A stretch of DNA of 64,000 bases from Anaerotruncus massiliensis (ex Togo et al. 2026). Lineage in GTDB: Bacteria > Bacillota > Clostridia > Oscillospirales > Ruminococcaceae. The notes under the pieces are model-generated. The model was not told the DNA's origin, did not search any database, and saw nothing but the letters and a program-made list of their open reading frames with translations. Positions 14,903 to 40,469 of this stretch are shown piece after piece (position 1 is the first letter of the stretch; each line of letters begins with the position of its first letter). A program made the position numbers and the translations under genes. Location of the stretch: NCBI RefSeq assembly GCF_900199635.1, contig NZ_LT962687.1, positions 2,604,541 to 2,668,540 of the forward strand, written 5' to 3'.

Positions 14903-17900
14903 TCAGGGCTGTTTCCGTTTCCATGCCAGTCCGGCGACCGCGGCGGCCGCGCAGGCCGCCAGCAGGAGCGCCAGCGCGGGCGCCGCAGGGGCCGCCGCAG
15001 GGGCGGCGGCATCCGTCGCGGGCCGCGCCTGCGGAACCGCCGCCTTGACCGCCGCGTCGGGCGCCGCCGTTTCGGGCTCCGCGGGAGGCGTGCCCCGCGC
15101 CGCGGCGGGCGCGTCGACCACGTGGACCGTACCGCCCGTGACGGGATTCACACGGCCTTGCGCGGACGCTTCCGGCAGGCTTTCGCCGCCCGTTTCCGCA
15201 TAGAGCTCCGCGAGATCGCTTAGCGGGTAGAAGACCCTCCCCTTCTCGCGGGGCAGAACGTCGCCGCCGTAGATCACGATGGGGCCGCCGGCGAAGTTTC
15301 CGCTGACGACCAGCGTCACGTCGCGTCCGCGCAGCGCGTCCAGCACCGAGCGGGGCATTTCGTCGAATTTGCCCGGGTTCGCTTTGACGACGTCGCCGTC
15401 CTTCGCACGGCGGATGGCGTCCGCAAGCCTGCTCCAGTAGGCGTCCGCCTCGCCGCGGGGGGAACCGCCGCCGCCCGACCCGCCGCGTCCCGGCTTTCCG
15501 CCGGGAGCCGGCGGCGTATCGGCGGACCTCTTCTGTGCGAAGAGCCAGCCCGGCAGCTCCGGCTCGTTATAGGCGTTGAACCAGCAGCTGTGGCCCACGC
15601 CGGGATATTCGGTGTAGCGCGCCTCTCCGCCCGCCGCCCGCAGGGCCTCCGTCATTTCGCGGGAACCGGCAACCGGCACGGTCGGGTCCGCGTCGCCGTG
15701 GAACGCCCAGACGGGCAGGTTTTTCAGGAGCGCCGCCTCCTCCGGGTCGCCCGCGCCGCAGATGGGGACCGCCGCGGCGAAGAGGTCCGGGCTGCGCATC
15801 GCCATGTCCCACACGCCGTAGCCGCCCATCGAAATCCCGACCAGGTAGAGCCGGTCCCTGTCGACGCGGTAGTCGCCGCAGAGTTTTTCGAGCAGCTCCT
15901 CAACCGCCTGCATCGAGGCGCTCTCCGGGGTCTCCGACAGGTCGTAGGAGCCGTCCGCCCACGGGGTGTTCACCCACTGGCTGTCCGTGCCGATCTGCGG
16001 GGCGACCATGATGCAGTCGTAGTCCGCATCCTGCCTGTCGAGGATCTTCTGGAAGACGCCCGCCTCGGCAAGCTGCTTTTCGTTGTCGGTTCCGCGCGCG
16101 CCCGCCCCGTGCAGGAAGAGGACGAGCGGGTAGGTCCTGTCCGCGCTGTAATCCTCGGGCAGGATGAGCCGGTAGGGCAGCGTCGTCCCCGCCGAGTCGG
16201 TAAAGCTCCCGCGCGAGGCGGCCTCATCGGCGCTGCGCGCGCCCTTAAGCGCCAGAATCTCCCCGGCGGACAGGGCGTAGTTATAGAGGCGCACCTCGTC
16301 CATCGCGCCCTTAAACTCCCGCGTTGCGCTGCCGTTATTTTTGCTCATGCCGATGCGCAGGATGTTCTCCCCGTTGACGTCGTACTGCCGGTCCTTCGGC
16401 TTGGAGGCGGAGAGCTTCCCATCGATGTAGATCTCCTGCGCCTGCGCGCGGTTGACGATCGCGAGATGGGTCCAGCGGCCGGCCCTGATCTTTTCCGCCG
16501 CGTTCAGCGTGGACTCCTCGGCGCCGTTCCCGATGTTGAACTGGAGGGTGCCGCTATTGAGGCGCACCCACCACTGTTTCGCACCCGCCGTATATCCGCC
16601 GTACCAGAAGAGCAGCTTCTGGTCGGTGAGGTCGCTCGGCTTGACCCAGAGGGAGGCGGTGAATTCGCCCTCCCCGAAGTCCCCGCCCAGCGGCTCGTTG
16701 ACGTCGAGGAAGCTCCCGCTGCCGCCGCAGGCGAGCCCGCTGCCGTACCGCCCGTCCGCGGTGATGGAGACGTTGCGCGCGGCGGCGCTGTTGCCCAGGC
16801 CCGAGAGGTCGGGGACCATGCCGCCCGAAAGCCGCTCCATGTCGTAGTGGAGGATCAGGGCGTCCTCCGGGACCTTCCCGTCCCGGAGAACGGTGAAGGT
16901 GTACCCGACGGTCCTGCCACCCGCGCGGACTTCAACGGAGACCGGCGTGCGCAGGCCGGTAAGCTCCGCGCGGAAGCTGTCCCCCGAAAGGACCTCCCCG
17001 TTGACGGCGATTTCCGCCGTCCCGTCAAAGGGGACGAACCGGATGTCGAGCGCCGCCGTCCCCTCCGCCACACGCACCTGATAGTCGTTGACAAGCGGAC
17101 TGAACGCCGGCTCGATCTCCGCCTGCGGCTCAAAGGAGACCGCCTTGAGGCTGGCCTTGTTGTCCGCCTCGAGCCAGTCGAGGGAAAAGCGCAGCAGCTT
17201 CAGGGTGAAATTTCCGCCCGGGGAGTTCTCCGCCAGCACGCAGACCGTGCCGTCCTCGTCCACCGTGATGTCGGAATACCCGCCGTCCTTTGCGAGGATG
17301 GTCCGCTTGGCAGACCAGGTCCTGCCGTCGTCATAGCTCGCCTTGACGGCGATGTTGGAGCGGGAGCTCGTGCTCTCGGCGTTGACAAAGAGGATGGTGC
17401 CGCTGTCGTAGCGCACGAGGCTGCCAAAGCAGGTGGGGTCGGGCAGCGCGTCGTCGAAGCGGGGCTCGCTCCAGCCGTCGTAGCCGTTGGGGCTTACAGT
17501 GATCGACCGCCGTTTGGCGGGAGAGACGTTGCGCATGTTGAGCATGACGCTGCCGTCGCTCAGCTCGACCGCCGTCGTCTCGTTGGGGTCGGACATCTCC
17601 CCGGTGGGATGGACCAGCTCGCCGAGCTGCCAGCTTCCGCCGGCGTCGGTGCTGTAAAGGGTGGTCACCACCGCCGGATGGTGGGACATGTCCGCCTCGC
17701 CCGACTCCTTGAGCACCAGCCAGACGGGCACGAGCAGCGTGCCGTCGCGCAGCTCGATGCCGTGGCCGGGGCCGGTGGCGATGACGTTGCGGATCTCCGG
17801 GCTCGTCATGTCGGAGATCTCCTCCGGCTCGCTCCAGCTCACCCCGTCGTCGTCACTGCGGCGGTAGAAGACGCCTCCGTTGGACGACTCCACGCCGTAC

Positions 17901-20152
17901 ATGACGCAGTAGAGCAGATGCACCGTGCCGTCCCGCGACGCGATCATGACGGGGTTATTCACCGTCTTGCCCGCCTGGGAACCCGCGGCGAGCATCTGCG
18001 ATTCGCTCCAGGTGTTGCCGCCGTCGGTGCTGCGCTTCATCAGCACGTCCATCGGCGCCCAGTCGCCCGCATTTTTACGCGCCTCGGTGTAGGCGAGCAG
18101 CGTCCCGGCGGCGGTGGTCACGATGCCGGGGATGCGGAAGTGGCCGTACCCCTCGGTGCCCGCCTGCCAGACGACGCTCTCCCCGAGCTTGTTGGAGGCC
18201 GGGTCGAAGGGGGTGGAGGCCGTCACCGACGGACCGTCGGAGCTGTAGCCGTTCGCATTGCCCGCCTCCACCTTGAAGAGGTAGGAGGTGCTCTCCTCGA
18301 GGCCGGTAAAGGTATAGGAGGCCGCCGCGCCGTCCACCTCCCCCGCCAGCTTCCCGTCGGCGTAAAGGCGGTAGCCGTCGACCGCCATCCGCGGGGCGTC
18401 CCACTCGACGGAAATCCGGTCGTCAAGCACCTCGGTTACCCGCAGTTTCTCCCGCTTGCTCCAGATCGGCACCGAGTCCGCCGGCACCTCGTAGGCGAGG
18501 GTCACATATTCGAGGAACGCCTCGGTCGGCTGTCCGGGCGTGCCCTGGCTCCAAAACTGGATCAGGTCGCCGTTCTTGTCCTTCTGCAGTGTGATGTCGC
18601 ACTTGTAGTCGTCGTCAATGTAGAGCTTGGCGGTGGGGTTGTCGCTCTTCTCGACCTCAAAGCGGTAGACATGCCAGTCGTTCCCCGCCTCAAAGGAATA
18701 ATGGCCGCCCCAGGTGCTCCCGCCGCTGCAGAAGCGCAGTTCCGTCTCCTCGATGCTGAACATGAGGCGGTAGGTGTCGTCGATTGCGATTTTGCTGGCG
18801 AGGGTGCTCTTGTTCGAGGTGACTTCGCCCGTGCCGAACCGCCCCACGCGCGCCTTGAATTCCAGCACATGCTTCTGCGGGACCGCGGTCTCGAGGCCGA
18901 TGATCGAGTTCGGCTGGTTCGTGCTGGCCAGCCGGAGCGCCGGCCCGTCGGTGACCTCGACCGTGCCGCTTGAAGACCACGCGTACTCCTTTCCGAAGTC
19001 GGCGAAATGCTCGTCCACATATTTGAAGAGCTCCCCGGATTCCTGCGGCGCGCCGCCGCCCGTCACCCGCAGGTACTCCACGCCCGCGACCGACGGGCTG
19101 TCCGCCGTCCCGTTCACCCAGAATTCGAGGACGGGTTCATTGCCGTCCTCCTGGAAGGCGATCTCCGTTATTTGGCGGTCGTCCACATAGAGCTTCGCCG
19201 AGGGGGTCTCCCCGGTCCGGTCCACCTTGAACCGGTAGGTATGCCAGTCGGTGCCCGCCGCAAAAGCGGAGGAACCGGCCCACGTCCCCTCCGGCGTGCA
19301 GTACCGGAGCTGATCCTCGTTGATCTTGAACATCAGCCGCCTTCCCCCCAGGGCCAGCTTGAAGGAAAGGTTGGCGCTGCCGGAGGTGTATTGCTCCACC
19401 CGGGCCCTGAATTCCACCGTGTAGCGGTCGGCGTCCAGGGTGCGGAACAGCTGCGCCTGAACGTTTACGCCCGTCGCGCCGGTCAGCAGGAGGCCTCCCT
19501 CCGGCCCCACCGCCGCGTTGCCGGCGAACGACCACTCCCCGGCCAGGCCGTCGGGGGAAAAGTTCTCGTCGAGCAGTGTCTCCCCGGAAACAGCCGCGTT
19601 CCGGGCGCGCACCGCCGAGGCGGCGACGAACCCTTCCGGCAGCGCGTCCGGATCGACGGGCGCGTCCGGGTCGGTGGGCGCGTCCGGGTCGGTTGGCGCG
19701 TCCGGGTCGACGGGCGCGTCCGGGTCGGTGGGCGCGTCCGGGTCGACGGGCGCGTCCGGGTCGGTTGGCGCGTCCGGGTCAACGGGCGCGTCCGGGTCAA
19801 CGGGCGCGTCCGGGTCGGTGGGCGCGTCCGGGTCGGTGGGCGCGTCCGGGTCGACGGGCGCGTCCGGGTCGGTGGGCGCGTCCGGGTCAACGGGCGCGTC
19901 CGGGTCGGTCGGCGCGTCCGGGTCGACAGGCGCGTCCGGGTCGACAGGCTCGTCCGGGTCGACAGGCTCGTCCGGGCCGACGGGCGCGTCCGGGCCGACG
20001 GGCGCGTCCGAAACCGCGGAATCCGCGGATTCGGACCGCGCGGGAGGCGCGGAGAGACCCTCCTGCGCCCACACCGGCCCGGCGCCCATGGTGCAGGCCA
20101 TGAGCACCGCAAGCAGCAGGGACAGTCCTCTTTTCATCCTTTTCTCTCTCAT
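14903..20152 (-). CDS. Giant multidomain secreted sialidase (GH33) fused to an alpha/beta-hydrolase esterase
   Basis: A 1749-residue exported enzyme. Domains, with rough residues: signal peptide 1-29; twenty hexapeptide DAP(V/T)DP repeats 49-168; two related concanavalin-like modules about 185-375 and 385-570; fibronectin III about 575-660; GH33 sialidase about 660-1000; cadherin-like sandwich to 1095; LamG 1105-1310; esterase 1330-1545; an uncharacterised region; Ala/Pro linker; membrane helix and KRK tail. Sialidase signs are GHFRIPGIV, four Asp boxes (e.g. STDGGNTWSE), ELSDGSVMLNMRN and GGYSDITVDEDG with the nucleophilic Tyr. The esterase has LHGAGARGTDN, GISMGGYG, GDADPTVP and GVGHSCW (Ser-Asp-His). 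It probably removes acyl groups and sialic acid from mucins. The start has AAGGAG; no LPXTG is seen. Confidence 0.92.
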   Translation of the reverse strand: MREKRMKRGLSLLLAVLMACTMGAGPVWAQEGLSAPPARSESADSAVSDAPVGPDAPVGPDEPVDPDEPVDPDAPVDPDAPTDPDAPVDPDAPTDPDAPVDPDAPTDPDAPTDPDAPVDPDAPVDPDAPTDPDAPVDPDAPTDPDAPVDPDAPTDPDAPTDPDAPVDPDALPEGFVAASAVRARNAAVSGETLLDENFSPDGLAGEWSFAGNAAVGPEGGLLLTGATGVNVQAQLFRTLDADRYTVEFRARVEQYTSGSANLSFKLALGGRRLMFKINEDQLRYCTPEGTWAGSSAFAAGTDWHTYRFKVDRTGETPSAKLYVDDRQITEIAFQEDGNEPVLEFWVNGTADSPSVAGVEYLRVTGGGAPQESGELFKYVDEHFADFGKEYAWSSSGTVEVTDGPALRLASTNQPNSIIGLETAVPQKHVLEFKARVGRFGTGEVTSNKSTLASKIAIDDTYRLMFSIEETELRFCSGGSTWGGHYSFEAGNDWHVYRFEVEKSDNPTAKLYIDDDYKCDITLQKDKNGDLIQFWSQGTPGQPTEAFLEYVTLAYEVPADSVPIWSKREKLRVTEVLDDRISVEWDAPRMAVDGYRLYADGKLAGEVDGAAASYTFTGLEESTSYLFKVEAGNANGYSSDGPSVTASTPFDPASNKLGESVVWQAGTEGYGHFRIPGIVTTAAGTLLAYTEARKNAGDWAPMDVLMKRSTDGGNTWSESQMLAAGSQAGKTVNNPVMIASRDGTVHLLYCVMYGVESSNGGVFYRRSDDDGVSWSEPEEISDMTSPEIRNVIATGPGHGIELRDGTLLVPVWLVLKESGEADMSHHPAVVTTLYSTDAGGSWQLGELVHPTGEMSDPNETTAVELSDGSVMLNMRNVSPAKRRSITVSPNGYDGWSEPRFDDALPDPTCFGSLVRYDSGTILFVNAESTSSRSNIAVKASYDDGRTWSAKRTILAKDGGYSDITVDEDGTVCVLAENSPGGNFTLKLLRFSLDWLEADNKASLKAVSFEPQAEIEPAFSPLVNDYQVRVAEGTAALDIRFVPFDGTAEIAVNGEVLSGDSFRAELTGLRTPVSVEVRAGGRTVGYTFTVLRDGKVPEDALILHYDMERLSGGMVPDLSGLGNSAAARNVSITADGRYGSGLACGGSGSFLDVNEPLGGDFGEGEFTASLWVKPSDLTDQKLLFWYGGYTAGAKQWWVRLNSGTLQFNIGNGAEESTLNAAEKIRAGRWTHLAIVNRAQAQEIYIDGKLSASKPKDRQYDVNGENILRIGMSKNNGSATREFKGAMDEVRLYNYALSAGEILALKGARSADEAASRGSFTDSAGTTLPYRLILPEDYSADRTYPLVLFLHGAGARGTDNEKQLAEAGVFQKILDRQDADYDCIMVAPQIGTDSQWVNTPWADGSYDLSETPESASMQAVEELLEKLCGDYRVDRDRLYLVGISMGGYGVWDMAMRSPDLFAAAVPICGAGDPEEAALLKNLPVWAFHGDADPTVPVAGSREMTEALRAAGGEARYTEYPGVGHSCWFNAYNEPELPGWLFAQKRSADTPPAPGGKPGRGGSGGGGSPRGEADAYWSRLADAIRRAKDGDVVKANPGKFDEMPRSVLDALRGRDVTLVVSGNFAGGPIVIYGGDVLPREKGRVFYPLSDLAELYAETGGESLPEASAQGRVNPVTGGTVHVVDAPAAARGTPPAEPETAAPDAAVKAAVPQARPATDAAAPAAAPAAPALALLLAACAAAAVAGLAWKRKQP
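19649..20008. repeat. 18-bp tandem satellite coding the DAP(V/T)DP repeats
   Basis: Twenty consecutive 18-bp units inside the sialidase gene encode DAPVGP, DEPVDP, DAPVDP or DAPTDP. The units are nearly identical at DNA level, differing mainly where Val (GTC/GTT-type codons) alternates with Thr. Such arrays change length by slippage; every unit is a multiple of three, so the frame is kept and only the spacer length of the enzyme would vary. Confidence 0.9.
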
Positions 20153-20188
20153 GCTCGGTTCTCCTTCTCTCCTCACGCGTTTACATGC

Positions 20189-21061
20189 TTACTCTTTCAC
20201 GCTTCCGACAAGGAAGCCCTTGGCAAAGTATTTCTGTACGAAGGGGTAGATGCAGAGGATGGGGACGACGCTGACAATGATGACCGCGCATTTGACCGTC
20301 TCTGCCGGGGGCATGTTGGCCAGCGGCAGGGCGAGGTCGGAACCGCTCGCGTTGAGGATGATGCCGCGCATGATGTTTTGCAGCGGCAGCTTGGCGTTGT
20401 CCACGATGAACAGCGAGGAATAGAACCACTCGTTCCAGTGCCAAACGGCGTACATCATCCCCACCGTCGCGATCGACGGCAGGCTCAGCGGCAGCACGAT
20501 CCGCCGGAAGAGCTGGAACTGGTTGCAGCCGTCAATCATGGCGGCCTCCTCCAGGCCGGGCGGGAGCTGCTGGTAGAACGCCTTCATGATGAAGATGTAC
20601 ACCGAATTGATCGCGAAGGGCAGGATCATCGACCAGAAGTTGTCGTAGAGCCCCACCCCCTTCACGAGCAGAAAGAGCGGCACGAGCGGCACCGGGAAGA
20701 CGATCGCCACATTGATCAGCGCGATGACCAGCCTGCGGCCGGGCAGGTCGTTTTTCGAGAGCGCGTAAGCCATCGTGCAGGTGAAAAACAGCTGGGTGGC
20801 AGTGCCCGCGACCACGCGCATAATGGTGACGCCATAGGCGTTGAAGATGCTCGATCCCTTGGAGAGGATCATCCGGTAGGCCGCCGCGTCGAACACCTCA
20901 GGGATCAGGATAAAGGTCCCCCGGCGGGAAATCTCGTCCTGTGACAGGAAGGACTGCATGAGGACGATGAACATCGGCAGCAAAAAGCAGACGCAGAGCA
21001 GGACCAGCAGGGTGATGTTGACCACTGTAAAGACTTTTTCGCCCGTGCTCTTGCAGGCCAT
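20189..21061 (-). CDS. Carbohydrate ABC transporter permease (LplC/YtcP type)
   Basis: A 290-residue inner-membrane permease of the CUT1 family with six predicted helices, starting with VVNITLLVLLCVCFLLPMFI. The cytoplasmic EAA loop that docks the ATPase reads EEAAMIDGCNQFQLFRRIVL. The ATG has AAGGAG seven bases upstream and lies 12 bases after the partner permease gene; the sialidase starts 36 bases downstream. The importer encoded here lacks its own ATPase, as usual for CUT1 systems that share a general one. The likely cargo is sialic acid or a sialylated or deglycosylated oligosaccharide, inferred from the neighbours. Confidence 0.9.
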   Translation of the reverse strand: MACKSTGEKVFTVVNITLLVLLCVCFLLPMFIVLMQSFLSQDEISRRGTFILIPEVFDAAAYRMILSKGSSIFNAYGVTIMRVVAGTATQLFFTCTMAYALSKNDLPGRRLVIALINVAIVFPVPLVPLFLLVKGVGLYDNFWSMILPFAINSVYIFIMKAFYQQLPPGLEEAAMIDGCNQFQLFRRIVLPLSLPSIATVGMMYAVWHWNEWFYSSLFIVDNAKLPLQNIMRGIILNASGSDLALPLANMPPAETVKCAVIIVSVVPILCIYPFVQKYFAKGFLVGSVKE

Positions 21062-31281: not shown

Positions 31282-32502
31282 TCACATGATGGGATCGAGG
31301 GGCAAAAGCTTGCTGTGGATCTTGACGAGCTTGGAGGGGTGCTCGGCGCGGAAGCGTTTGACGATGCGGTCGAGCACCATCGAGCCGTTCTCAAAGGTGA
31401 CGGTCGGCAGCATGAGCACATACTGGGTCGCGGAGAAGCGCGAGACGATGTCCCCCTTGCGCAGGCTGTTGCGGATCGTCTCGAGAAGCTGCTTCATCGT
31501 CTTGCCCAGCAGCTTGATCTCGGGCACGCCGTCGTGCATGTCGGTGACGGTGAGCAGGCCGATGAAGATCGACTGCCCGGTGCGCGCCGCGCTGCGCGCC
31601 TCGACGCGGTACATATTTTTGAACACCTCATATTCACAGTAATAGGCGCCCTTGACGAGGTTGGACTCGTTGAGATCCTCCTTGATGACCTGCAGGTCGG
31701 TCTCCACGCTGTTGACCGTCTTGCTGATCTCGCGGTAGAGGTTGCGCAGCGGCTCGCTCGGGCTGACCCCCAGCTCGCGGTAGAAGAGGTCGGTGACATA
31801 GTTGTAGTGGGAAAGGGCCTGCTGCTGCTTGCCCTGATGGATCATCGCGTCGATGAGGGTGATGTGCGCGCGCTCCTCGAACTGGTCGATGATAATCGCT
31901 TTCTGGGCGATCGTCTCGATCGACTGGTAATCGCCGCGCTTCTGGAGCAGCTGGCAGGACTCCTGCACGCACTTGAAATAGAGCGCGTGGAAATAGGTGC
32001 TCAGCGGCACCACCCACTCCTCGAAGTGAGAGCTGCTCAGGAAATCCCCCTTGTAAAGGTCGAGCGCCTCCAGGTAGATCCGCAGGCGTTCCTCCTCGGT
32101 CAGGTTCTTGTTGGACGCCTCGCCGTAGAGCCGTTCAAACTCCTCCGCGTCAACCGTGCAGTTGAGGCCCTCGTTCCACGAATAGCACCCGTGCTCGTAG
32201 ACGATGACGTTCTTCGCGAAGGGGACGTTGTTGTTGGCAAAGAGGGTGCGGATGCGGTAGACGAGGTTTTTTAAGGCGTTTGCGGGCTGCTCGCTGTCGT
32301 TTTCCGACCAGAGCACCCGGATGAGCTCCTCGTTGGAGATCGTCTTGTGCCGGTAGGCGATGAGGTATTCCAGAAGACTCCAAACCTGATGGGTCCGCGC
32401 GGAAGAATCGCTGATTGTGACCTCCCCCATCGTGATATTGAAGCCGCCCAGCATCTCAATCTGGATCGGGGAACCGTCGTAGTTCGGTACGCTTTCTGCC
32501 AT
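31282..32502 (-). CDS. SARP/BTAD-type transcriptional activator with degenerate GGDEF-like tail
   Basis: A 406-residue regulator: OmpR-like winged helix at about residues 10-105 (IQIEMLGGFNITMGEVTISD; LIRVLWSENDSEQPANALKN), a bacterial transcriptional activation (BTAD) TPR-like domain to about 255, and a C-terminal region resembling a GGDEF fold in which the signature is replaced by RFSATQYVLML, so cyclase activity is not expected. The start has AAGGAG nine bases ahead. It is divergent from the pseudopilus operon and may control it; that is inference. Confidence 0.85.
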   Translation of the reverse strand: MAESVPNYDGSPIQIEMLGGFNITMGEVTISDSSARTHQVWSLLEYLIAYRHKTISNEELIRVLWSENDSEQPANALKNLVYRIRTLFANNNVPFAKNVIVYEHGCYSWNEGLNCTVDAEEFERLYGEASNKNLTEEERLRIYLEALDLYKGDFLSSSHFEEWVVPLSTYFHALYFKCVQESCQLLQKRGDYQSIETIAQKAIIIDQFEERAHITLIDAMIHQGKQQQALSHYNYVTDLFYRELGVSPSEPLRNLYREISKTVNSVETDLQVIKEDLNESNLVKGAYYCEYEVFKNMYRVEARSAARTGQSIFIGLLTVTDMHDGVPEIKLLGKTMKQLLETIRNSLRKGDIVSRFSATQYVLMLPTVTFENGSMVLDRIVKRFRAEHPSKLVKIHSKLLPLDPIM

Positions 32503-32597
32503 GGATGCTCTCTCCTTATGTCGACATGGAAGGCATCTGCCCATCACGAGGAAATTTCCAGGGACTCCCGGGAATATCCAAGTTTCTCCTGTATTAA

Positions 32598-32661: not shown

Positions 32662-32772
32662 AAGTATCACAATAACTGGAAATTTGTAATATTTTGAAGA
32701 AATGTGACTGATTGCCTGTCATTGCCCGCTCAAAAGCCGTTTTCAAAGCGGGAAGAAAGGAGGCGGGCCGTC

Positions 32773-33699
32773 GTGCAACCGATCTTTTGCCGGCTCCGGC
32801 GGCGCGCCCTGCGGCTCGCGCTGCTGCCGGCGGTTTTCCTCCTGCTGGCCGCCCTGTGCGCCCTGCCGGCGGACGCCGCGGCGCCCGCCGGAACCTATGT
32901 GCGCACCCCCGCCGCGCCCGGCACCGTCGTCCACGGCAACGCCAAGGCCGGCTTCGATGCCTCCAACGCCTCGCAGGGCTACATTATGGCCTGGTACGGC
33001 GGGTCCGCGGACAAGGTGAAGGTCCAGATCACGGGCGGCGGGAGCACCTATACCTACAACCTCAACACGGCGGGACGCAAGGAGGTGTTCCCGCTCACCA
33101 TGGGGGACGGGTCCTACACCGTGGCGGTCTACGAACGCGTGACCGGCAACCAGTACGCGCTCGCCTACAGCAAACAGATCTCCGTCAAGCTGGAAAGCGC
33201 CTTCCTGCCCTTCCTCTATCCCAACCAGTATGTGAACTTCTCCGCGTCGAGCCGGACGGTGAGCGTCGCCGGCACCCTCGCCGCCGACGCGGCGGATCAG
33301 CTCGGGGTCGTCACAAATATTTACAACTATGTCATCAGCCACATCACTTATGACAGTTACAAGGCGGCGAACGTCCAGTCGGGCTATCTGCCGTCGGTCG
33401 ACAGCACGCTGGCAGCCGGGACCGGCATCTGCTTCGACTACGCGGCGGTGATGGCCGCCATGCTCCGGTCCCAGCAGATCCCCACCCGGCTGGAGGTGGG
33501 GTACGTGTCGGGCGGGACCTACCACGCGTGGATCAGCACCTACATCGCCGAGGTGGGCTGGGTGGACGGCATCATCCAGTTCGACGGCAAGAGCTGGAAG
33601 CTGATGGACCCCACCTTCGCCTCCAACGGGGGAAGCAGCCCGGAGATTATGCAGTTCATCGGCAACGGGGCCAACTACCAGATGAAATACCGGTATTGA
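32773..33699 (+). CDS. Secreted transglutaminase-like cysteine protease-fold protein
   Basis: A 308-residue exported protein: basic signal peptide (ALRLALLPAVFLLLAALCALPADA), a beta-rich region, and a C-terminal transglutaminase-like core with the triad Cys in GTGICFDYAAVMAAMLRSQQ, His in YHAWISTYI and Asp in LMDPTFAS. The GTG at 32773 is chosen because AAAGGAGG lies nine bases upstream and the product then begins with a normal signal sequence. It is the first gene of the pilus-like operon, 19 bases before the PilC homologue, and may trim or crosslink surface proteins or peptidoglycan peptides. The exact reaction is unknown. Confidence 0.85.
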   Translation: MQPIFCRLRRRALRLALLPAVFLLLAALCALPADAAAPAGTYVRTPAAPGTVVHGNAKAGFDASNASQGYIMAWYGGSADKVKVQITGGGSTYTYNLNTAGRKEVFPLTMGDGSYTVAVYERVTGNQYALAYSKQISVKLESAFLPFLYPNQYVNFSASSRTVSVAGTLAADAADQLGVVTNIYNYVISHITYDSYKAANVQSGYLPSVDSTLAAGTGICFDYAAVMAAMLRSQQIPTRLEVGYVSGGTYHAWISTYIAEVGWVDGIIQFDGKSWKLMDPTFASNGGSSPEIMQFIGNGANYQMKYRY

Positions 33700-33718
33700 C
33701 AATATAAGGGGTGACGTC

Positions 33719-34786
33719 ATGGGCAACCAGAAAAACAGGCGGGCCGTCGAAACGCCGCTTTCCCCGCGGGAGCTTTCCGCCTTCTGCGCGCAGCTCGCGA
33801 TGCTCGTCCGCTCGGGGATCCCCGCGGCGGAGGCCATTTCGATCATGCGGGGAGACGCGGGCGGCGGCCCGGGCGGGGAGCTGCTCGCCGCGATCGGCGA
33901 GCGGCTGGAGGACCGCGCCGCGCTTGGCACCGCGCTGGCGGAGGCGGGGGTGTTCCCGCGCTACTTCGTCAGCATGGTGGAGATCGGGGAGAGGTCCGGC
34001 CGCCTTGACGAGGTGCTCGACGCGCTGTGCGCCTACTATGAGCGGGAGGAGTCGGTGTCGGAGGGCATCCGCAGCGCCGTCGCCTATCCGCTCGTCATGA
34101 TCGTCATGATGGCGCTCGTCGTCGGCGTGCTCGTCATCAAGGTCCTGCCCGTGTTCAGCGAGGTCTTCGTGGAGCTGGGCGGCGGGGCGTCGAGCTTTGC
34201 CGGACAGGTCATGCGCCTGGGCGCCGCCTCGGGGCGGATCGCCATCGCGCTGACCGCCGTCGTGCTGCTGCTGCTCGCCGCCTACCTTCTCATGCGCGCC
34301 TTCCCGGCGGGACGCGCCGCCCTCTCCCGGTGGAGCGCGGTCTTTCCGCTCACCCGCGGGATCTCGGCGCGCGTCGCCTCGGGCCGGTTCGCCTCCGCCA
34401 TGGCGATGATGCTTTCGAGCGGGCTCGATTCCGACCAGTCGCTCGACATGGCCGTCCGCCTCCTCGACGAGGGGCCGATGCGCCGCAGGGCGGAGCGCTG
34501 CCGCGAACTCGTCTCGGGCGGGGCCTCCTTTGCCGACGCGGTCAGCCAGGCGGGCATCTTCCCCGGCGTCTACGCGCGGATGGTGTCGGTCGGCTTTTCG
34601 ACCGGCTCCGCCGACACGGTGCTGCGCAAGCTCGCCTCCCGCTACGAGGAGGAGGTCGACGCGCGGGTCGCGCGGATGCTCTCTGTGCTCGAGCCCACCC
34701 TCGTCGCCATCCTCGCCGTCGTGGTGGGGATCATCCTGCTGTCGGTCATGCTGCCCCTGATGGGCGTCATGTCCTCGATCGGCTGA
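33719..34786 (+). CDS. Type IV pilus/type II secretion inner-membrane platform protein (PilC/GspF family)
   Basis: A 355-residue polytopic protein with two repeated GspF domains: LSAFCAQLAMLVRSGIPAAE and FVSMVEIGERSGRLDEVLDA in the first, then FASAMAMMLSSGLDSDQSLD and YARMVSVGFSTGSADTVLRK in the second. Three membrane helices are visible, the last being VAILAVVVGIILLSVMLPLM. It anchors pilin polymerisation and couples it to the cytoplasmic ATPase. It has an AGGGG ribosome site eight bases before the ATG. Confidence 0.93.
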   Translation: MGNQKNRRAVETPLSPRELSAFCAQLAMLVRSGIPAAEAISIMRGDAGGGPGGELLAAIGERLEDRAALGTALAEAGVFPRYFVSMVEIGERSGRLDEVLDALCAYYEREESVSEGIRSAVAYPLVMIVMMALVVGVLVIKVLPVFSEVFVELGGGASSFAGQVMRLGAASGRIAIALTAVVLLLLAAYLLMRAFPAGRAALSRWSAVFPLTRGISARVASGRFASAMAMMLSSGLDSDQSLDMAVRLLDEGPMRRRAERCRELVSGGASFADAVSQAGIFPGVYARMVSVGFSTGSADTVLRKLASRYEEEVDARVARMLSVLEPTLVAILAVVVGIILLSVMLPLMGVMSSIG

Positions 34787-34799
34787 CGGGAGGCGCGTG

Positions 34800-35126
34800 A
34801 TGAGACGCTTTGTTTCCAAACGCCGCCGTCCGCTCGCCGGGCTCCTGCTCCCGGCCGCCGCCACCCTGGTAATCATCGCGTTCGCCGCGTGGGGGGCCGA
34901 CTCCGTCTCGGAGGCGGCGCGGGAGGAACAGCTCGGCGCCGTCCGCCGTTCGGTGACCCGCGCGGCGGTCCACTGCTACGCCATCGAAGGGTCCTATCCC
35001 CCCAGCCTCGACTATCTTGAGGAGCACTACGGGCTCACGGTCGACAGGGCCCGCTATTCCATCCACTACCACTGCTTCGCATCCAACCTGATGCCGGAGA
35101 TCGACGTGATTCCCCTGACGAAATAA
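34800..35126 (+). CDS. Small membrane-anchored pseudopilus-locus protein
   Basis: A 108-residue protein with one N-terminal membrane helix (PLAGLLLPAAATLVIIAFAA) and an extracytoplasmic part with YAIEGSYPPSLDYLEEHYG, a phrase like the loop of pseudopilin G, and a conserved-looking C-terminal HCFASNLMPEIDVIPL. The ATG at 34800 has GGGAGG six bases ahead; the overlapping GTG at 34797 is less likely. It lacks a classical prepilin cleavage site. It is probably a minor pilin-like subunit; I do not recognise a named family. Confidence 0.7.
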   Translation: MRRFVSKRRRPLAGLLLPAAATLVIIAFAAWGADSVSEAAREEQLGAVRRSVTRAAVHCYAIEGSYPPSLDYLEEHYGLTVDRARYSIHYHCFASNLMPEIDVIPLTK

Positions 35127-35155
35127 ACCGGGACTTCACGGGAAGGGAGGCCGCC

Positions 35156-35653
35156 ATGAACATCCGTTTTCAGCCGCGCAGGCATGTGATCGACCTGCTG
35201 TTCACCCTCGCGCTCTTCTGTGTCTTCGCCGCCTCCGCCCTGCTTGTCGTGCTCATCGGCGCGGACGTCTACGAGTCCTCCGCCCGCGGCATGGACCGCA
35301 ATTTCGATCTTCAGACCTCCCTGCACTATGTCGCCGCGAAGGTCCGCCAGTGCGACGCGGCGGGCGCGGTGCACGCGGGGGAGCTGGGCGGCGCGCCCGC
35401 GCTCATAATCGAACAGGAGTTCGGCGGCGAGGTCTACCGCACCTATCTCTACGCGTGGGAGGGCAGCCTCTGCGAGCTCTTCACCGGCATGGACGACCCC
35501 TCCCCCGTCGACGGGACCCCCATCACGAAGGTGCCCGCCTTTGAGGTGGAGCAGGTGAACCCGCGCCTGCTGCGCGTCTCCTGCCCCGATGCGGACGGGC
35601 GGGACGCGCAGCTCTATCTCTCGCTGCGCAGCGGCAAGGAGGGTTCGGCATGA
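35156..35653 (+). CDS. DUF4860 protein
   Basis: A 165-residue protein with one N-terminal membrane helix (VIDLLFTLALFCVFAASALLVV) followed by an extracytoplasmic domain with DLQTSLHYVAAKVRQCD and a repeated charged beta pattern. I recognise it as DUF4860, a family found beside pilin-like genes in Clostridia. The N-terminus resembles a minor pilin. Its stop codon overlaps the next start (ATGA). Confidence 0.78.
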   Translation: MNIRFQPRRHVIDLLFTLALFCVFAASALLVVLIGADVYESSARGMDRNFDLQTSLHYVAAKVRQCDAAGAVHAGELGGAPALIIEQEFGGEVYRTYLYAWEGSLCELFTGMDDPSPVDGTPITKVPAFEVEQVNPRLLRVSCPDADGRDAQLYLSLRSGKEGSA

Positions 35654-36120
35654 GACAGCCCCGCACCCATTCTGGATCGAGCCTCTTTTTGATGGAGCTG
35701 ATCCTCGCGATCCTCTTTTTCTCGGTCGCAAGCGCGGTCTGCGTGCAGCTTTTCGCACGGGCGCACACGGCGAGCGAGCAGAGCGCCGCGCTCAACCGCG
35801 CGGTGCTGGCCGCCGAATCGGCCGCCGAGTCCTTCAAGGGCGCGGACGACCTCGACGAGGCGGTGCGGCTCATGGGCGTGCGCGCCGGGGATACGCCGGG
35901 CGTCCTGACCGCCTGGTACGACCGGGCGTGGAACCCCTGCGCCGAGCGGGACGCCCGCTACCGCCTAGACATCCTGATCCACGGGCCGGAGGGCGGCGGG
36001 TCCCTGCCCGGCAGGCCGGGCGGCCTGTGGGAGGCGGAAATCACCGTCGGCAGGACGGCGGACGGCGTTTTCGAAGAGCTTTACCGCCTGAGCGCGCGGC
36101 GGTATCAACCCGCCGCGTGA
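35650..36120 (+). CDS. Minor pilin-like protein
   Basis: A 156-residue protein whose N-terminus, SGSSLFLMELILAILFFSVA, looks like a type IV prepilin helix (hydrophobic with a Glu at the expected position after a short leader), though the residue before the presumed cleavage point is not the standard Gly. The rest is an extracytoplasmic domain with no clear catalytic motif. Coupled to the DUF4860 gene by a 4-base overlap with GGAGG ahead. Confidence 0.7.
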   Translation: MRQPRTHSGSSLFLMELILAILFFSVASAVCVQLFARAHTASEQSAALNRAVLAAESAAESFKGADDLDEAVRLMGVRAGDTPGVLTAWYDRAWNPCAERDARYRLDILIHGPEGGGSLPGRPGGLWEAEITVGRTADGVFEELYRLSARRYQPAA

Positions 36121-36150
36121 CGGCGGAATAGAATGAAAGGAGGGCGGCAA

Positions 36151-36594
36151 ATGAGCGGACGGCGCAAGACGGGAAGCGTCTTCATCGGCGTCTCCTCCCT
36201 GTTGGTCATCTTCATCGTGCTCTGCCTGACGACCTTTGCGGCCCTCTCCCTCACGTCGGCCAACGCCGACCTCAAGATGGCGCGCCGCGCGGCGCAGACG
36301 GTGTCCGAATATTACGCCGCCGACAGCCGGGCGGTCGAGCTGCTCGTCCAGGCCGACGCGGCCGTGGAGGCGAATCCCGCGCGGCCGCAGGCCGCGGGGG
36401 TCTCCTTCGAGCGCCGGGGCCGGGCGCTCGTCGCCTCCTATACCGTCCCCATCTCCGACGCGCAGGAGCTGCGCGTCGAGGTGCGTTACCCCGGCCCCGG
36501 GGGGGCGCGCCACGAAATCCTGCGGTGGCAGGCCGCCTCCGCCCGGGAGTGGCAGGGCGACGAGACCATCGAGCTGTGGGACGGCACCCTCTGA
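36151..36594 (+). CDS. Pilus-locus membrane protein
   Basis: A 147-residue protein with a short basic leader, a helix GSVFIGVSSLLVIFIVLCLTT and then AALSLTSANADLKMARRAAQ, a coiled segment seen in clostridial pseudopilus proteins. The ATG at 36151 is preferred over 36133 because AAAGGAGG lies seven bases upstream of it. No enzymatic motif is visible; it is probably a structural subunit of the same assembly. Confidence 0.65.
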   Translation: MSGRRKTGSVFIGVSSLLVIFIVLCLTTFAALSLTSANADLKMARRAAQTVSEYYAADSRAVELLVQADAAVEANPARPQAAGVSFERRGRALVASYTVPISDAQELRVEVRYPGPGGARHEILRWQAASAREWQGDETIELWDGTL

Positions 36595-36618
36595 ACCATT
36601 ACACCGGAGGTAATCCAA

Positions 36619-37686
36619 ATGGATATCCTGCATTTCCTTCAGGACGCGGTGGACCGCCGCGCTTCCGACATCTTCATCATTGCCGGGCTGCCGGTGACCT
36701 TCAAGGTCAACGGCCAGCTCCTGCGCGCCGACGGCGGACGGCTCACCCCCGCCGACTCCCAGGCCCTCATCCAGGGGGCCTACGCGCTCGCGGGCCGGGA
36801 GATCGCCATCGTCGAAGGCGGAGGCGACGACGACTTCTCCTTCGCGCTCCAGGGGGTGTCGCGCTTCCGGATCAGCGCATACAAACAACGCGGTTCGCTC
36901 GCCGCGGTCATCCGCGTCATCACCTTTGAGCTGCCCAACCCGCACGACCTTGGCATTCCAGACGGGGTGCTCTCCCTCGCGGAGATGCAAAAGGGACTCG
37001 TGCTCGTCACCGGCCCGGCCGGGTGCGGCAAATCGACGACGCTCGCCTGCGTGATCGACGCGATCAACAACTCCCGCAGCGCCCACGTCATCACGCTGGA
37101 GGACCCCATCGAGTTCCTCCACCGGCACAAGCATTCCATCGTCAGCCAGCGGGAGGTCGCGACCGACACCCAGAGCTATGTGACGGCGCTGCGCGCCGCG
37201 CTCCGCCAGTCGCCCGACGTCATCCTGCTCGGCGAGATGCGCGATCACGAGACGATCAGCGTCGCCATGACCGCCGCCGAAACGGGGCACCTCGTCCTGT
37301 CGACGCTGCACACGGTCGGCGCGGCCAACACGATCGACCGGGTCATCGACGTCTTCCCGCCCAACCAGCAGCAGCAGGTGCGCGTCCAGCTTTCGATGGT
37401 GCTGCGCGCGGTCGTCTCCCAGCAGCTTATCCCCACGGTGGACGGAGGGCTCGTCCCCGCGTTCGAGATCCTGCTCGCCAACGACGCGGTGCGCAACATG
37501 ATCCGCGAATCCAAGGTGCACCAGATCGGCGGAGTGATCTACTCCTCCTCCTCGCAGGGGATGTGCGACATGGACAGCAGCATCCTGCGGCTCTTCAGCG
37601 ACGGCGTGATCTCGCGGGAGAACGCGCTGCTCTACAGCACCAACCCCGACGCCCTCGCGCGCAAGCTCGGCGGGACCGGGCGCTGA
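36619..37686 (+). CDS. pilT: PilT-type pilus ATPase
   Basis: A 355-residue hexameric motor. Motifs: Walker A VTGPAGCGKSTT near residue 132, Asp box ITLEDPIEFLHRH, Walker B DVILLGEMRDHETI and His box AAETGHLVLSTLHTVGAANT, followed by RVIDVFPP. The N-terminal RRASDIFIIAGLPVTFKVNG is the usual PilT start. It is the last gene of the operon and the only ATPase here; no PilB and no major pilin gene are visible, so either they lie elsewhere or this single motor drives a minimal system. Confidence 0.93.
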   Translation: MDILHFLQDAVDRRASDIFIIAGLPVTFKVNGQLLRADGGRLTPADSQALIQGAYALAGREIAIVEGGGDDDFSFALQGVSRFRISAYKQRGSLAAVIRVITFELPNPHDLGIPDGVLSLAEMQKGLVLVTGPAGCGKSTTLACVIDAINNSRSAHVITLEDPIEFLHRHKHSIVSQREVATDTQSYVTALRAALRQSPDVILLGEMRDHETISVAMTAAETGHLVLSTLHTVGAANTIDRVIDVFPPNQQQQVRVQLSMVLRAVVSQQLIPTVDGGLVPAFEILLANDAVRNMIRESKVHQIGGVIYSSSSQGMCDMDSSILRLFSDGVISRENALLYSTNPDALARKLGGTGR

Positions 37687-37902: not shown

Positions 37903-37930
37903 TTGACATTTGGCGGCGATGGGATATAAT
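37903..37930 (+). promoter_or_regulatory. Promoter of the metal-efflux operon
   Basis: TTGACA, a 16-base spacer, TATAAT: full consensus boxes. Confidence 0.9.
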
Positions 37931-37933
37931 AAA

Positions 37934-37955
37934 CATATGAACAATAGCTCATATG
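37934..37955. promoter_or_regulatory. ArsR/SmtB-type operator
   Basis: CATATGA and TCATATG are exact inverted copies 8 bases apart, right at the predicted transcription start and before the ArsR gene. Position and AT-rich form suit ArsR/SmtB repressors, which release DNA on binding metal. Confidence 0.75.
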
Positions 37956-37968
37956 AAAGGTGATTCGA

Positions 37969-38331
37969 ATGATAGACAAGGACGGCATGGAACGCTGCGA
38001 CTACATCCACGCGCATGAGGACATCGTAAACGCCGTCAACGCGCAGATGCCCGACGAGGAGATCCTCTACGACCTCGCCGAGCTCTTCAAGGTGTTCGGC
38101 GACTCCACCCGCATCAAGATCCTCTACGTGCTCTTTGAGTCGGAGATGTGCGTGTGCGATATCGCACAGCTTCTCAATATGAACCAGTCGGCGATCTCCC
38201 ACCAGCTGCGGGTGCTCAAGCAGTCCAAGCTGGTCAAATACCGCCGCGACGGCAAAACCGTATTCTATTCCCTGGCAGACGGGCATGTCCGCACCATCCT
38301 GGGGCAGGGCATGGAGCACGTCGCCGAATAA
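37969..38331 (+). CDS. ArsR/SmtB-family metal-responsive repressor
   Basis: A 120-residue winged helix protein: FKVFGDSTRIKILYVLFESE, then CVCDIAQLLNMNQSAISHQL and VLKQSKLVKYRRDGKTVFYS. The CVCD motif in the recognition-helix region is the metal-site signature of CadC/ArsR-type sensors for Cd, Pb or Zn, and a His/Asp-containing C-terminal helix (DGHVRTILGQGMEH) could add an alpha5-type zinc site. The ATG at 37969 has AAAGG eight bases ahead. It leads the operon with the HMA protein and P-type ATPase it presumably represses. Confidence 0.9.
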   Translation: MIDKDGMERCDYIHAHEDIVNAVNAQMPDEEILYDLAELFKVFGDSTRIKILYVLFESEMCVCDIAQLLNMNQSAISHQLRVLKQSKLVKYRRDGKTVFYSLADGHVRTILGQGMEHVAE

Positions 38332-38355
38332 ATCGACTGAACGGAGGAACCACCC

Positions 38356-38574
38356 ATGAAAAAGACTTTTCGCCTGCGCGACCTCGACTGCGCCAACTGC
38401 GCCGCCAAAATGGAAAACGCGATCAACAAGCTCGACGGCGTCCAGAGCGCAACGGTAAGCTTCATGACCCAGCGCCTCACGCTCGAGGCGGACGACGCGC
38501 GTTTCGACGAGGTGCTCAAGGAAGCGGTGCGCGTCTGCAGGAAGGTCGAGCCCGACTGCACCGTGCTCGTCTGA
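38356..38574 (+). CDS. Stand-alone heavy-metal-associated (HMA) protein
   Basis: A 72-residue ferredoxin-like metal carrier: FRLRDLDCANCAAKMENAIN has the CxxC pair at about residues 12-15. The Asp before the first Cys (DCANC) is the pattern of Zn/Cd/Pb-specific domains in CadA/ZntA pumps rather than Cu domains. The next gene is a pump lacking an N-terminal HMA domain, so this looks like that domain encoded as a separate protein. Confidence 0.9.
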   Translation: MKKTFRLRDLDCANCAAKMENAINKLDGVQSATVSFMTQRLTLEADDARFDEVLKEAVRVCRKVEPDCTVLV

Positions 38575-38618
38575 GTCCCCTCTCCGCCTTCCCAAATCTT
38601 TTTTTGGAGGTCCGCGCC

Positions 38619-40469
38619 ATGTCCAAAAAACAAAGACGGACCCTGGTCCGTCTGATCATCGGCGCGGCGGCCTTTGCCGCCGCGCTCCTCATCCCCCTCG
38701 GGGGCGTCTTCCGGCTCGCCCTCTTCCTCGTGCCCTACTTCGTCATCGGCGGCGACGTGTTGCTGCGCGCCCTGCGCAACATCGCGCACGGGCAGGTGTT
38801 CGACGAGAACTTCCTGATGGCGGTCGCCACGGTGGGCGCCTTCTGCGTGGGCGAATACCCCGAAGGGGTCGCCGTCATGCTCTTCTACCAGGTGGGCGAG
38901 CTCTTCCAGAGCTACGCGGTCGGGCGTTCGCGCCAGTCGATCTCCGCCCTGATGGACATCCGCCCCGACTACGCCAACGTCCGCCGGGAGGGCGAGCTCG
39001 TCCGGGTCGACCCCGAGGAGGTCTCCGTCGACGACCTGATCGTCGTGAAGCCGGGCGAACGGGTGCCGCTCGACGGCGTGATCGCCGAGGGCAGCTCCAC
39101 GCTGGACACCGCCGCGCTCACCGGCGAATCCCTCCCCCGCGACGCAGCGCCCGGCGACGCGGTCATCAGCGGCTGCATCAACCTGAGCGGCCTGCTCACC
39201 GTCCGCGTCTCCCGCGTCTACGGGGAATCGACCGTGGCCAAAATCCTCGACCTCGTCGAAAACGCGAGCAGCAAAAAGGCGAAGGCGGAAAACTTCATCA
39301 CCCGCTTCGCCCGCTGGTATACCCCCGCCGTCGTCATCGGCGCGGCGCTGCTCGCGGTCGTCCCGCCGCTCGTCACGGGCGGTCCCTTCCCGATGTGGAT
39401 TCACCGCGCGCTCATCTTCCTGGTCATCTCCTGCCCCTGCGCGCTCGTCATCTCGGTGCCGCTCTCCTTTTTCGGCGGCATCGGCGGGGCGTCCAAATGC
39501 GGCATCCTTGTCAAGGGCAGCAACTACCTCGAGGCGCTCGCCGGGACCGAAACGGTCGTCTTCGACAAGACCGGCACCCTCACCAAGGGTTCCTTCCGGG
39601 TCACGGCGGTGCATCCCGACGAGATCTCCGAGGACCGGCTGCTCGAGCTGGCGGCGCTCGCCGAGAGCTATTCAAGCCACCCGATCGCCCTTTCGCTGCG
39701 GGCCGCCTACGGGAAGGAGCCCGACGAAACCCGCGTCTCCGGCGTGGAGGAGGTCTCCGGCCGGGGCGTGAAGGCCACGGTCGACGGACGAAAGGTGTGC
39801 GCCGGCAACGGGAAGCTGATGGACGAGGCGGGCGCCGTGTGGCACGACTGCCACCTGTCCGGCACGACCGTCCACGTCGCGGTGGACGGGGAGTATGCGG
39901 GGCACATCGTGATCTCCGACGAGGTCAAGGAGGACGCCCGCGAGGCGGTCTCCGCCCTGCGCGAGGCGGGCGTGCGCAAAACGGTGATGCTCACCGGGGA
40001 CGCCGAGCCGGTCGCCGCCCAGGTGGCGAAGGAGCTCGGACTCGACGAGTACCACGCGGGCCTGCTCCCGGCCGACAAGGTCGACCGGATGGAGCGGCTG
40101 CTCGCGGAAAAATCCCCGCGCGGGGTGCTCGCCTTCGTGGGCGACGGTATCAACGACGCGCCCGTCCTCTCCCGCGCCGACATCGGCATCGCGATGGGCG
40201 GACTCGGCTCCGACGCGGCCATCGAGGCCGCCGACGTGGTCATCATGGACGACCGCCCCTCCAAGCTCGCTGCGGCGATCAAAATCTCCCGCAGGACGCT
40301 TGCCATCGTGCGGCAGAACATCGTCTTCGCGCTCGCCGTCAAGGCGCTTGTGCTTCTGCTCGGCGCGCTCGGCGACGCCAATATGTGGGAGGCCGTCTTT
40401 GCCGACGTGGGCGTTTCGGTGATCGCCATCCTCAACGCCACCCGCGCGCTGAACGTCAAAAACCTCTGA
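38619..40469 (+). CDS. P1B-type heavy-metal exporting ATPase (Zn/Cd/Pb type)
   Basis: A 616-residue pump with membrane helices, the translocation motif FLVISCPCALVISVPLSFFG, phosphorylation site VVFDKTGTLTKGSF, TGES-type actuator loop AALTGESLPRDA, HP motif YSSHPIALSL and hinge GDGINDAPVLSRADIGIAMG. The SPC-type CPC plus the preceding DxANC protein and a late VSVIAILNATRAL point to Zn/Cd/Pb export. It starts directly with membrane helices, so the usual N-terminal metal-binding domain is absent. GGAGG precedes the ATG. Confidence 0.93.
   Translation: MSKKQRRTLVRLIIGAAAFAAALLIPLGGVFRLALFLVPYFVIGGDVLLRALRNIAHGQVFDENFLMAVATVGAFCVGEYPEGVAVMLFYQVGELFQSYAVGRSRQSISALMDIRPDYANVRREGELVRVDPEEVSVDDLIVVKPGERVPLDGVIAEGSSTLDTAALTGESLPRDAAPGDAVISGCINLSGLLTVRVSRVYGESTVAKILDLVENASSKKAKAENFITRFARWYTPAVVIGAALLAVVPPLVTGGPFPMWIHRALIFLVISCPCALVISVPLSFFGGIGGASKCGILVKGSNYLEALAGTETVVFDKTGTLTKGSFRVTAVHPDEISEDRLLELAALAESYSSHPIALSLRAAYGKEPDETRVSGVEEVSGRGVKATVDGRKVCAGNGKLMDEAGAVWHDCHLSGTTVHVAVDGEYAGHIVISDEVKEDAREAVSALREAGVRKTVMLTGDAEPVAAQVAKELGLDEYHAGLLPADKVDRMERLLAEKSPRGVLAFVGDGINDAPVLSRADIGIAMGGLGSDAAIEAADVVIMDDRPSKLAAAIKISRRTLAIVRQNIVFALAVKALVLLLGALGDANMWEAVFADVGVSVIAILNATRALNVKNL

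Follow-up and report, generated by a model that had tools for sequence, protein, structure and literature searches.

A seven-gene operon in a 64,000-nucleotide stretch of the Anaerotruncus massiliensis genome (NZ_LT962687.1, positions 2,604,541 to 2,668,540; hereafter, the window) appears to encode a self-contained machine derived from the type IV filament (T4F) superfamily, which would run on a retraction-type motor, PilT, and would have dropped both the extension motor and leader cleavage. We assign this reading a probability of roughly 0.6, on the strength of sequence comparisons and structure models. According to an excerpt of PMC10191384, the superfamily has four core proteins that occur in every system, namely pilins, a prepilin peptidase, an extension ATPase and a platform protein, and an excerpt of Denise et al. 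(PMC6668835) holds the assembly function of PilB to be essential in all families. The extension motor and leader cleavage are two of the four core features. The operon had been noticed in an original prediction made from the window alone, and its seven co-directional genes were confirmed at 32773-37686 on the + strand.

Gene content and conservation of the operon

The operon begins with a transglutaminase (TGase)-like exported enzyme carrying an N-terminal signal segment (32773..33699, +; Transglut_core, E = 1.9e-18), followed by a PilC/GspF platform of 355 aa (33719..34786, +; T2SSF, 1.1e-48). Four small proteins come next: S1 (34800..35126, +; 108 aa, or 109 aa if the start is at 34797; no Pfam family, type IV pilin-like model), the DUF4860 protein (35156..35653, +; PF16152, 8.6e-22; GspJ/XcpW-type model), S3 (35650..36120, +; 156 aa; no Pfam family, GspI/PilV-like by profile and Glu+5) and S4 (36151..36594, +; 147 aa; single-helix, GspK/PilX-like by position and N-terminal pattern). 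The last gene encodes a PilT-class ATPase, the sole motor of the operon (36619..37686, +; T2SSE, 8.5e-44; TIGR01420). The TGase-like gene starts with GTG at 32773, preceded by AGGAGG at 32758-32763, in an open frame that extends back to 32704, and the open frame of S4 begins at 36133, with 36151 as the chosen start. With S1 starting at 34800 and S4 at 36151, the intergenic gaps are 19, 13, 29, -4, 30 and 24 bp, and an operon is therefore likely. The scans with Pfam, NCBIfam and N_methyl bore out the claim that the operon has no PilB, no PilD (prepilin peptidase) and no N_methyl prepilin; in the Pfam/NCBIfam scan its proteins also gave no PilM, PilN or PilO match, and S1, S3 and S4 had zero Pfam matches at E up to 1.

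To follow the set of genes across genomes, we took the best 80 of 522 confirmed PilT relatives in named genomes, the loci being fetched with PilT alone. All seven families are present in 65 of these 80 loci, and 63 have the exact order of the window, which is the outcome of the check on gene order that the original prediction had called for. Since so many loci fetched with PilT alone hold all seven families, the operon is no chance grouping. The two exceptions are L059, with PilT in first position, and L107, where the TGase-like gene comes afterwards on the opposite strand. Nine loci are cut by contig ends (L048, L050, L079, L081, L097, L105, L109, L110 and L114), and three (L057, L104 and L118) are ambiguous. 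Exactly one ATPase of the PilT/PilB family was found in each of the 80 loci, PilB being scored as absent by best-hit assignment and PF00437. Relatives of the PilM, PilN and PilD of the main pilus locus described below were not found in the 80 loci, the single-sequence seeds making this a weak test for PilM and PilN. By record titles the hosts include Lachnospiraceae, Oscillospiraceae, Christensenella, Butyricicoccus, Blautia, Hungatella and Flexilinea. DUF4860 itself occurs in 42 of 391 genomes of the class (24 of 223 genera) and, in a sample of the phylum, in 7 of 299.

The PilT motor and the PilC platform

The operon ATPase scores 412.9 bits with TIGR01420 (cut-off 319.1), vs. 136.9 bits with the ComGA model, far under its cut-off of 300. 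In a tree of 75 ATPases, 37 of 38 operon PilTs and two lone PilTs form one group (SH-aLRT, the Shimodaira-Hasegawa-like approximate likelihood ratio test, 99), which is nested within PilT and away from PilB, the exception being G207; the CpaF-like ATPases of operon-carrying genomes form a separate branch. All 38 sequences retain the catalytic residues K138 (Walker A), E161 (Asp box), E206 (Walker B), H231 (His box) and R296 (in an AIRNLIRE-like motif). From the placement within PilT and the conservation of these residues, the sole motor of the operon is apparently an active, retraction-class PilT. The operon PilC has a shorter N-terminal part than its main-locus counterpart (355 vs. 395 aa), and the GspF model aligns to it from position 51.

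Folds and N-termini of the four small proteins

The small proteins were compared in alignments of rows below 75% identity (53 of 54 rows for S1, 58 of 58 for DUF4860, 55 of 59 for S3, with four removed by hand, and 58 of 59 for S4; for the TGase-like enzyme, 32 of 47). Structure prediction with AlphaFold2 covered DUF4860 and S1, and S3 and S4 were judged from their sequences. The DUF4860 model (pLDDT, the predicted local distance difference test, 93.8) has a 60-residue helix (7-66) and an eight-strand head. With VIA-align, in which Z below 8 (below 13 for long helices) may reflect only a common arrangement, its top ten rows are all of the pilin/GspJ type (Z 8.1-9.1), and the next row has Z 5.0. 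Among the ten are TTHA1219 (Z 9.1, 3.4 Å, 112 residues), EpsI:EpsJ (2ret_D; Z 8.7, 4.2 Å, 120 residues), XcpV:XcpW (5bw0_C; Z 8.6, 3.9 Å, 123 residues) and GspJ (3ci0_J; Z 8.1, 4.5 Å, 112 residues), the J-type chain of the complexes being assigned from chain name and length. DUF4860 is thus likely a minor pseudopilin of the GspJ/XcpW type, which gives this domain a likely structural identity; in an open-access library, we found no paper on DUF4860 or on the seven-gene set. The four small single-helix proteins, one of them DUF4860, are as first described, but DUF4860 is no separate oddity among them, its model being GspJ-like.

The S1 model (pLDDT 93.5) consists of a helix (13-63) and two strands. 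Its best VIA-align match is PilA4 of T. thermophilus (Z 7.3, 3.6 Å, 95 residues), on which residue 9 of S1 falls at mature residue 1; 37 chains aligned, and nine of the first ten rows are type IV pilins, which is suggestive of a small type IV pilin-like protein. For S3, named type IV pilins account for 8 of 12 matches of its profile to the PDB at E up to 5 (best E = 0.0092), and these alignments place Glu16 on pilin Glu5 and FLME on pilin TLIE. Glu16, the pilin Glu+5, is invariant in 55 of 55 rows, and Gly-1 is mostly not kept. With E-values this weak, S3 may be a GspI/PilV-like protein. In S4, G13 before the helix is invariant in 58 rows and Glu+5 is absent, a pattern like that of GspK/PilX, and the S4 profile matches S3 with a probability of 70%; position and N-terminal pattern make S4 a GspK/PilX-like candidate, the weakest of the four assignments. 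A sequence search of the PDB gave nothing notable for DUF4860, S1 or S4 (best S1 match TcpA, E = 0.44), and PHROGs gave two weak matches only, both to S3, one of them a pilin (0.069).

Of the class III signal (G/A|xxxxE), the strict cleavage motif is present in none of 53 S1, 58 DUF4860, 55 S3 and 58 S4 rows, and the same motif was found in three of three main-locus pilins of the window genome, which served as a control. A loose motif (G/A-x4-E/D) occurs in 0 rows of S1, 1 of DUF4860, 15 of S3 and 0 of S4. The missing cleavage sites, together with the missing PilB and PilD, would also fit a degenerate remnant of a lost pilus locus; this explanation has a negligible probability in our view, given that the seven families are kept together in 65 of 80 loci from many families and that catalytic and structural residues are invariant.

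PilB and prepilin peptidase in the window genome and in other carriers

The window genome (3.15 Mb, 7 contigs, 98.75% complete) was searched for pilB and pilD, as had been proposed. Three ATPases exceed the T2SSE cut-off, namely PilB (433.5 bits), a PilT adjoining it and the operon PilT, and there is one A24 peptidase. The sole PilB and the sole PilD lie in a main pilus locus (G000:C7, about 1025845-1040811), 1.6 Mb from the operon, which contains PilC, PilM, PilN-like, PilD, PilB, PilT and several prepilins (GFTLIE or GFTLVE), PilM and PilN being named by eye. The original prediction had considered that a full pilus locus elsewhere might lack only the genes of the operon, making the latter its ordinary second part. 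A full locus does exist, but since PilC and PilT are already encoded there, the operon is not its missing half. In the window genome, the operon may borrow from the classic pilus or influence it.

For INDEPENDENCE from PilB/PilD, PF00437 and PF01478 were searched in 59 handles that correspond to 58 genomes (G532 = G684). The handles comprise 32 of 46 other DUF4860-positive genomes, chosen mainly for completeness (G391, 99% complete, was outside these 32), and the genomes of 27 of the 80 loci, mostly isolates; 57 of the 58 genomes are shown to have DUF4860 or the operon, and G705 (L119) has a lone PilT. A match was called PilB-class if its best E with PF00437 was below 1e-100, with 27 first-look candidates scored per genome; the seven strict genomes introduced below were rescored with all candidates. 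A PilB-class match was found in 23 of the 58 genomes, and in 9 the operon PilT is the only T2SSE-family ATPase (E up to 1e-10). The A24 peptidase (PF01478) was not found in ten of the 58 genomes, including 8 of the 9 in the PilT-only set. A PilD profile built from 23 peptidases of these bacteria (A6) and searched at E up to 10 gave zero matches in 8 of 12 genomes tested, with positive controls at 2.9e-95 (G000, the window genome) and 2.2e-64 (G232); in G503 it found a peptidase split by contig ends, and G365 gave only E = 0.2. The strict set leaves out G365 (a draft with a Tad-like ATPase), G503 (for its contig-split PilD), G232 (which has the peptidase) and G647 (a draft with an N_methyl S3 and fragments of a Tad-like platform without their ATPase).

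The seven strict genomes are G437 (one contig, 100% complete), G639 (five contigs, 99%), G533, G220, G680 (Yanshouia hominis), G683 (Merdimmobilis hominis) and G696 (Butyricicoccus pullicaecorum), with operons at L155, L156 (TGase-like gene divergent), L157, L159, L045, L055 and L091. With every candidate scored against PF00437 at E up to 1e-3, they have no PilB-class match: the operon PilT appears once in each (135-169 bits), and all other matches reach at most 27.7 bits, vs. 433.5 for PilB in the window genome. Each has one PilC, and six of the seven have no N_methyl prepilin. At the level of the genome, the operon of these seven carriers is independent of PilB and PilD. The original prediction had left two options, that PilT drives assembly or that the partners are elsewhere; the seven genomes without detectable PilB or PilD favour the first, whereas in the window genome PilB and PilD do exist elsewhere.

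A tree of PilC and PilT was built for 38 operons of known PilB/PilD status with both proteins in hand (L044, which has the nearest PilT, is outside it). The starred branches of this tree force the seven strict genomes into seven separate lineages, and the sister of the window operon among the 38 is that of Yanshouia hominis (98/96), one of the seven. The presence of PilB is scattered near-randomly on the tree, requiring 10 changes, a number as low as that of 57 of 500 shuffles. These results bear on the possibility that the operon is an accessory module of the classic pilus, its minor pilins and a spare PilC2 and PilT2 working alongside the main locus, which would supply PilB, PilD and the major pilin. 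The complete locus with the sole PilB and PilD in the window genome is in keeping with such a module, as is the PilB-class match in 23 of 58 genomes. We nevertheless consider it unlikely, in view of the seven operon lineages without PilB and PilD, the near-random scatter of PilB, the strict cleavage motif in 0 of 53-58 rows per small-protein family vs. three of three main-locus prepilins, and the PilC and PilT that the main locus already has.

Several results weigh against a self-contained machine driven by PilT. The window genome does contain PilB and PilD that the operon could use. G437, without a detected PilD, encodes three N_methyl proteins (G437:C1:2887536, 279408 and 2152060), and G683 yields a further T2SSE match, a weak one barely above the cut-off (27.7 bits; a 371-aa frame, G683:C3:114998-115405). 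Five loci of one genus (g5) have no PilT within ~500 bp of S4, and in one g5 genome, G142 (operon L160), PilT is 40 kb away and belongs to the main-locus PilT branch (L161, G142:C18:176618-177088), which suggests that the motor of the operon was replaced there. The DUF4860 fold match is moderate (Z 8-9; Foldseek with TTHA1219, E = 0.078), Z 7.3 for S1 is inconclusive alone, and Foldseek E was never below 0.001 for S1 or DUF4860. S3 has G or A at residue -1 and Glu at +5 in 15 of 55 rows, and the S3 proteins of the f130 family match N_methyl, so that some S3 orthologues may be cleaved where PilD exists. The TGase-like enzyme is not universal either, none being encoded near the operon in two f130 loci (L158 and L162).

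The proposed machine and known systems

In the machine that we propose, PilT would hydrolyse ATP under the PilC platform, turning or tilting PilC, and would thereby move the four pilin-like proteins, assembled into a short complex anchored in the membrane. This complex would resemble the tip formed by GspIJK/PilVWX, with one small pilin added. The subunits would keep their short N-terminal tails and remain uncleaved, and because they are uncleaved, a short stub or piston is likelier than a long pilus. The TGase-like enzyme would work on the extracellular side, its targets being the head domains or else wall or surface proteins presented by the stub. For PilT supporting extension there is a precedent in the MSHA (mannose-sensitive haemagglutinin) pilus, where PilT is needed (excerpt of PMC9815625), and for a single two-way motor in CpaF, which drives both extension and retraction (excerpt of PMC11300603). 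We tentatively put forward, at somewhat less than even odds, that PilT, PilC, four uncleaved anchored pilin-like proteins forming a reciprocating stub and an extracellular TGase-like enzyme make up an envelope machine of a class of its own, present in Clostridia and some other bacteria. Such a class would mean that the superfamily can dispense with two of its four supposedly universal proteins.

Measured against the T4F superfamily, the operon has the platform and, by its predicted models, the pilin fold, and lacks the peptidase, the extension ATPase and the class III signal; we therefore call it derived from T4F and not a standard member. In at least seven lineages it keeps a platform and pilin-like subunits without a detectable peptidase or extension ATPase. 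Its four small proteins resemble the tip or priming complex GspH-I-J-K / FimU-PilV-W-X; unlike the minor pilin systems of the type II secretion system (T2SS) and the type IVa pilus, however, it has no GspE/PilB, GspO/PilD or secretin, and its subunits lack the strict cleavage motif. The operon's PilT and PilC (PilT2 and PilC2) belong to the same families as those of the type IVa pilus, with PilT2 nested among main-locus PilTs; PilT of that pilus is an accessory retraction motor, whereas PilT of the operon is the only motor, and the PilM, PilN and PilO found in the type IVa locus have no match in the operon. The Tad pilus likewise has a single ATPase, CpaF, that possibly does all the work, but it keeps the prepilin peptidase TadV, and CpaF-like ATPases are on a branch apart from the operon PilT.

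The Com pilus (comG) is similar in having one ATPase, one platform, a small pilin with minor pilins, and no PilMNO. It differs in having a ComGA-type extension ATPase and a peptidase, which is ComC; the operon has a PilT-class ATPase, several of its hosts lack a detectable peptidase, and it usually includes a TGase-like enzyme. A short Com-like or T2SS-like extending filament, built from uncleaved pilins by a two-way PilT and serving DNA uptake or protein secretion, would accord with the order of PilC, small pilin and minor pilins, which recalls that of comG as generally known, and with the CpaF and MSHA precedents. Its probability is low, in our judgement. A prepilin peptidase is core to every known T4F system, as stated in the excerpt of PMC10191384, and the flanks of the loci revealed neither a conserved secreted substrate nor a gene for DNA uptake. 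ComEC is present in 377 of 391 genomes of the class, with or without the operon, and thus gives no association with it; being near-universal, it was rejected as an uninformative test of DNA uptake.

Reuse outside pili has a parallel in SpoIIIA-SpoIIQ, a non-pilus envelope machine with a T2SS- and type IV secretion system-like ATPase, SpoIIIAA, and a GspF-like protein, SpoIIIAB (excerpt of PMC2703783). The likeness to the operon is in the reuse of a T2SS-type ATPase and a GspF-like platform. The other SpoIIIA-SpoIIQ parts are likened to YscJ/FliF, FlhB and permeases, none of which the operon proteins match in Pfam, and pilin-like subunits, of which the operon has four, are not among the SpoIIIA parts listed in that excerpt. 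The operon points to a widespread, uncharacterised envelope machine of Clostridia. As a minimal system that occurs naturally in anaerobes already in culture, it lends itself to two questions: does PilT on its own suffice to drive PilC, and do pilin-like proteins function without being cleaved?

The TGase-like enzyme

Cys220, His251 and Asp279 of the TGase-like protein are conserved without exception among the 32 relatives aligned, and in many of these the N-terminus is lipobox-like. The closest solved structure is 3isr (E = 3.7e-12), annotated as a putative cysteine protease, and the protein is a putative exported cysteine protease or transglutaminase; it might crosslink or trim a fibre, as the original prediction suggested. 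It is present in 66 of the 80 loci, most of the others being interrupted by contig ends. As the sole extracellular enzyme of the operon, with its triad and this frequency, it could be the point of a static signalling or surface-processing complex in which the pilin-like proteins present or hold a TGase-like lipoprotein and PilT and PilC only assemble or recycle the complex. The catalytic residues kept in all 38 PilTs argue instead for ongoing ATP-driven work, and the two f130 loci have intact PilC, small proteins and PilT with no TGase-like gene nearby; we regard a static complex as very improbable, clearly more so than a Com-like filament.

Divergent loci and locus variants

The divergent relative in G207 (L154, G207:C123:8000-24699) has the order PilT-PilC-S1-DUF4860-S3-S4-PilD-TGase at 7258-13236, with PilD adjoining the small-protein genes. 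Its DUF4860 reads KG|YTLVE and its S3 reads KG|FTLVE, the latter matching N_methyl at 3.7e-6. N_methyl is matched in the divergent relatives L154, L158 and L162, and the f130 S3 is a canonical N_methyl protein. We infer from these sequences a possible stepwise loss, from cleavable subunits with a resident peptidase, through a stage in which S3 alone is cleavable, to none; the direction of change is inferred, and the deep root is unsettled.

The entire operon is also present in Flexilinea flocculi (L087), which belongs to the Chloroflexota; PilC and PilT of this species cluster with their clostridial counterparts, which suggests acquisition by transfer. In L080 (6530-8346), ~1.8 kb lies between S3 and S4 of an otherwise intact operon. 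Three loci (L046, L047 and L119) contain lone PilTs of the operon branch, the other six genes not being seen in the DNA examined; the hosts are two Gracilibacteraceae metagenome-assembled genomes and one Anaerovorax with two SARP genes nearby, and L047 is outside the tree. PilT matches in plasmids were all below 60% identity (44 records). In a phage collection, an unannotated faecal record titled ‘Bacteriophage sp.’ (MT836211.1:4710-5162) encodes a DUF4860 relative (36%), and this record is probably bacterial DNA.

Regulator and neighbouring genes

Upstream of the operon and divergent from it lies a SARP/BTAD-type regulator with a degenerate GGDEF-like C-terminal part (31282..32547, -; BTAD, 4.4e-20; Trans_reg_C, 6e-7; DgcR-type match at residues 350-397, 1e-6). 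A SARP relative is near 14 of the 80 PilT-fetched loci (12 loci in the clustering of flank genes), for which reason control by SARP is plausible and the protein is a probable regulator of the operon. We found no + strand promoter match upstream of the operon and no convincing regulatory repeat upstream of the TGase-like gene common to relatives. The flanks yielded no further partner gene beyond lineage synteny: the clusters present in at least 8 loci were rejected as partners, being Lachnospiraceae housekeeping synteny (18 loci), other common genes and SARP.

Downstream of the operon, at 37903-40469, a perfect sigma-70-type promoter (TTGACA-16-TATAAT) precedes an ArsR-like regulator, a heavy-metal-domain peptide and a P-type metal ATPase, an ordinary set of metal genes named by eye. 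The main pilus locus includes a pilin-like frame of ~1985 aa with the N-terminal motif GFTLVE (C7, about 1034854-1040811; 14855-20812 in the joined L007/L008), a giant pilin-fused surface protein.

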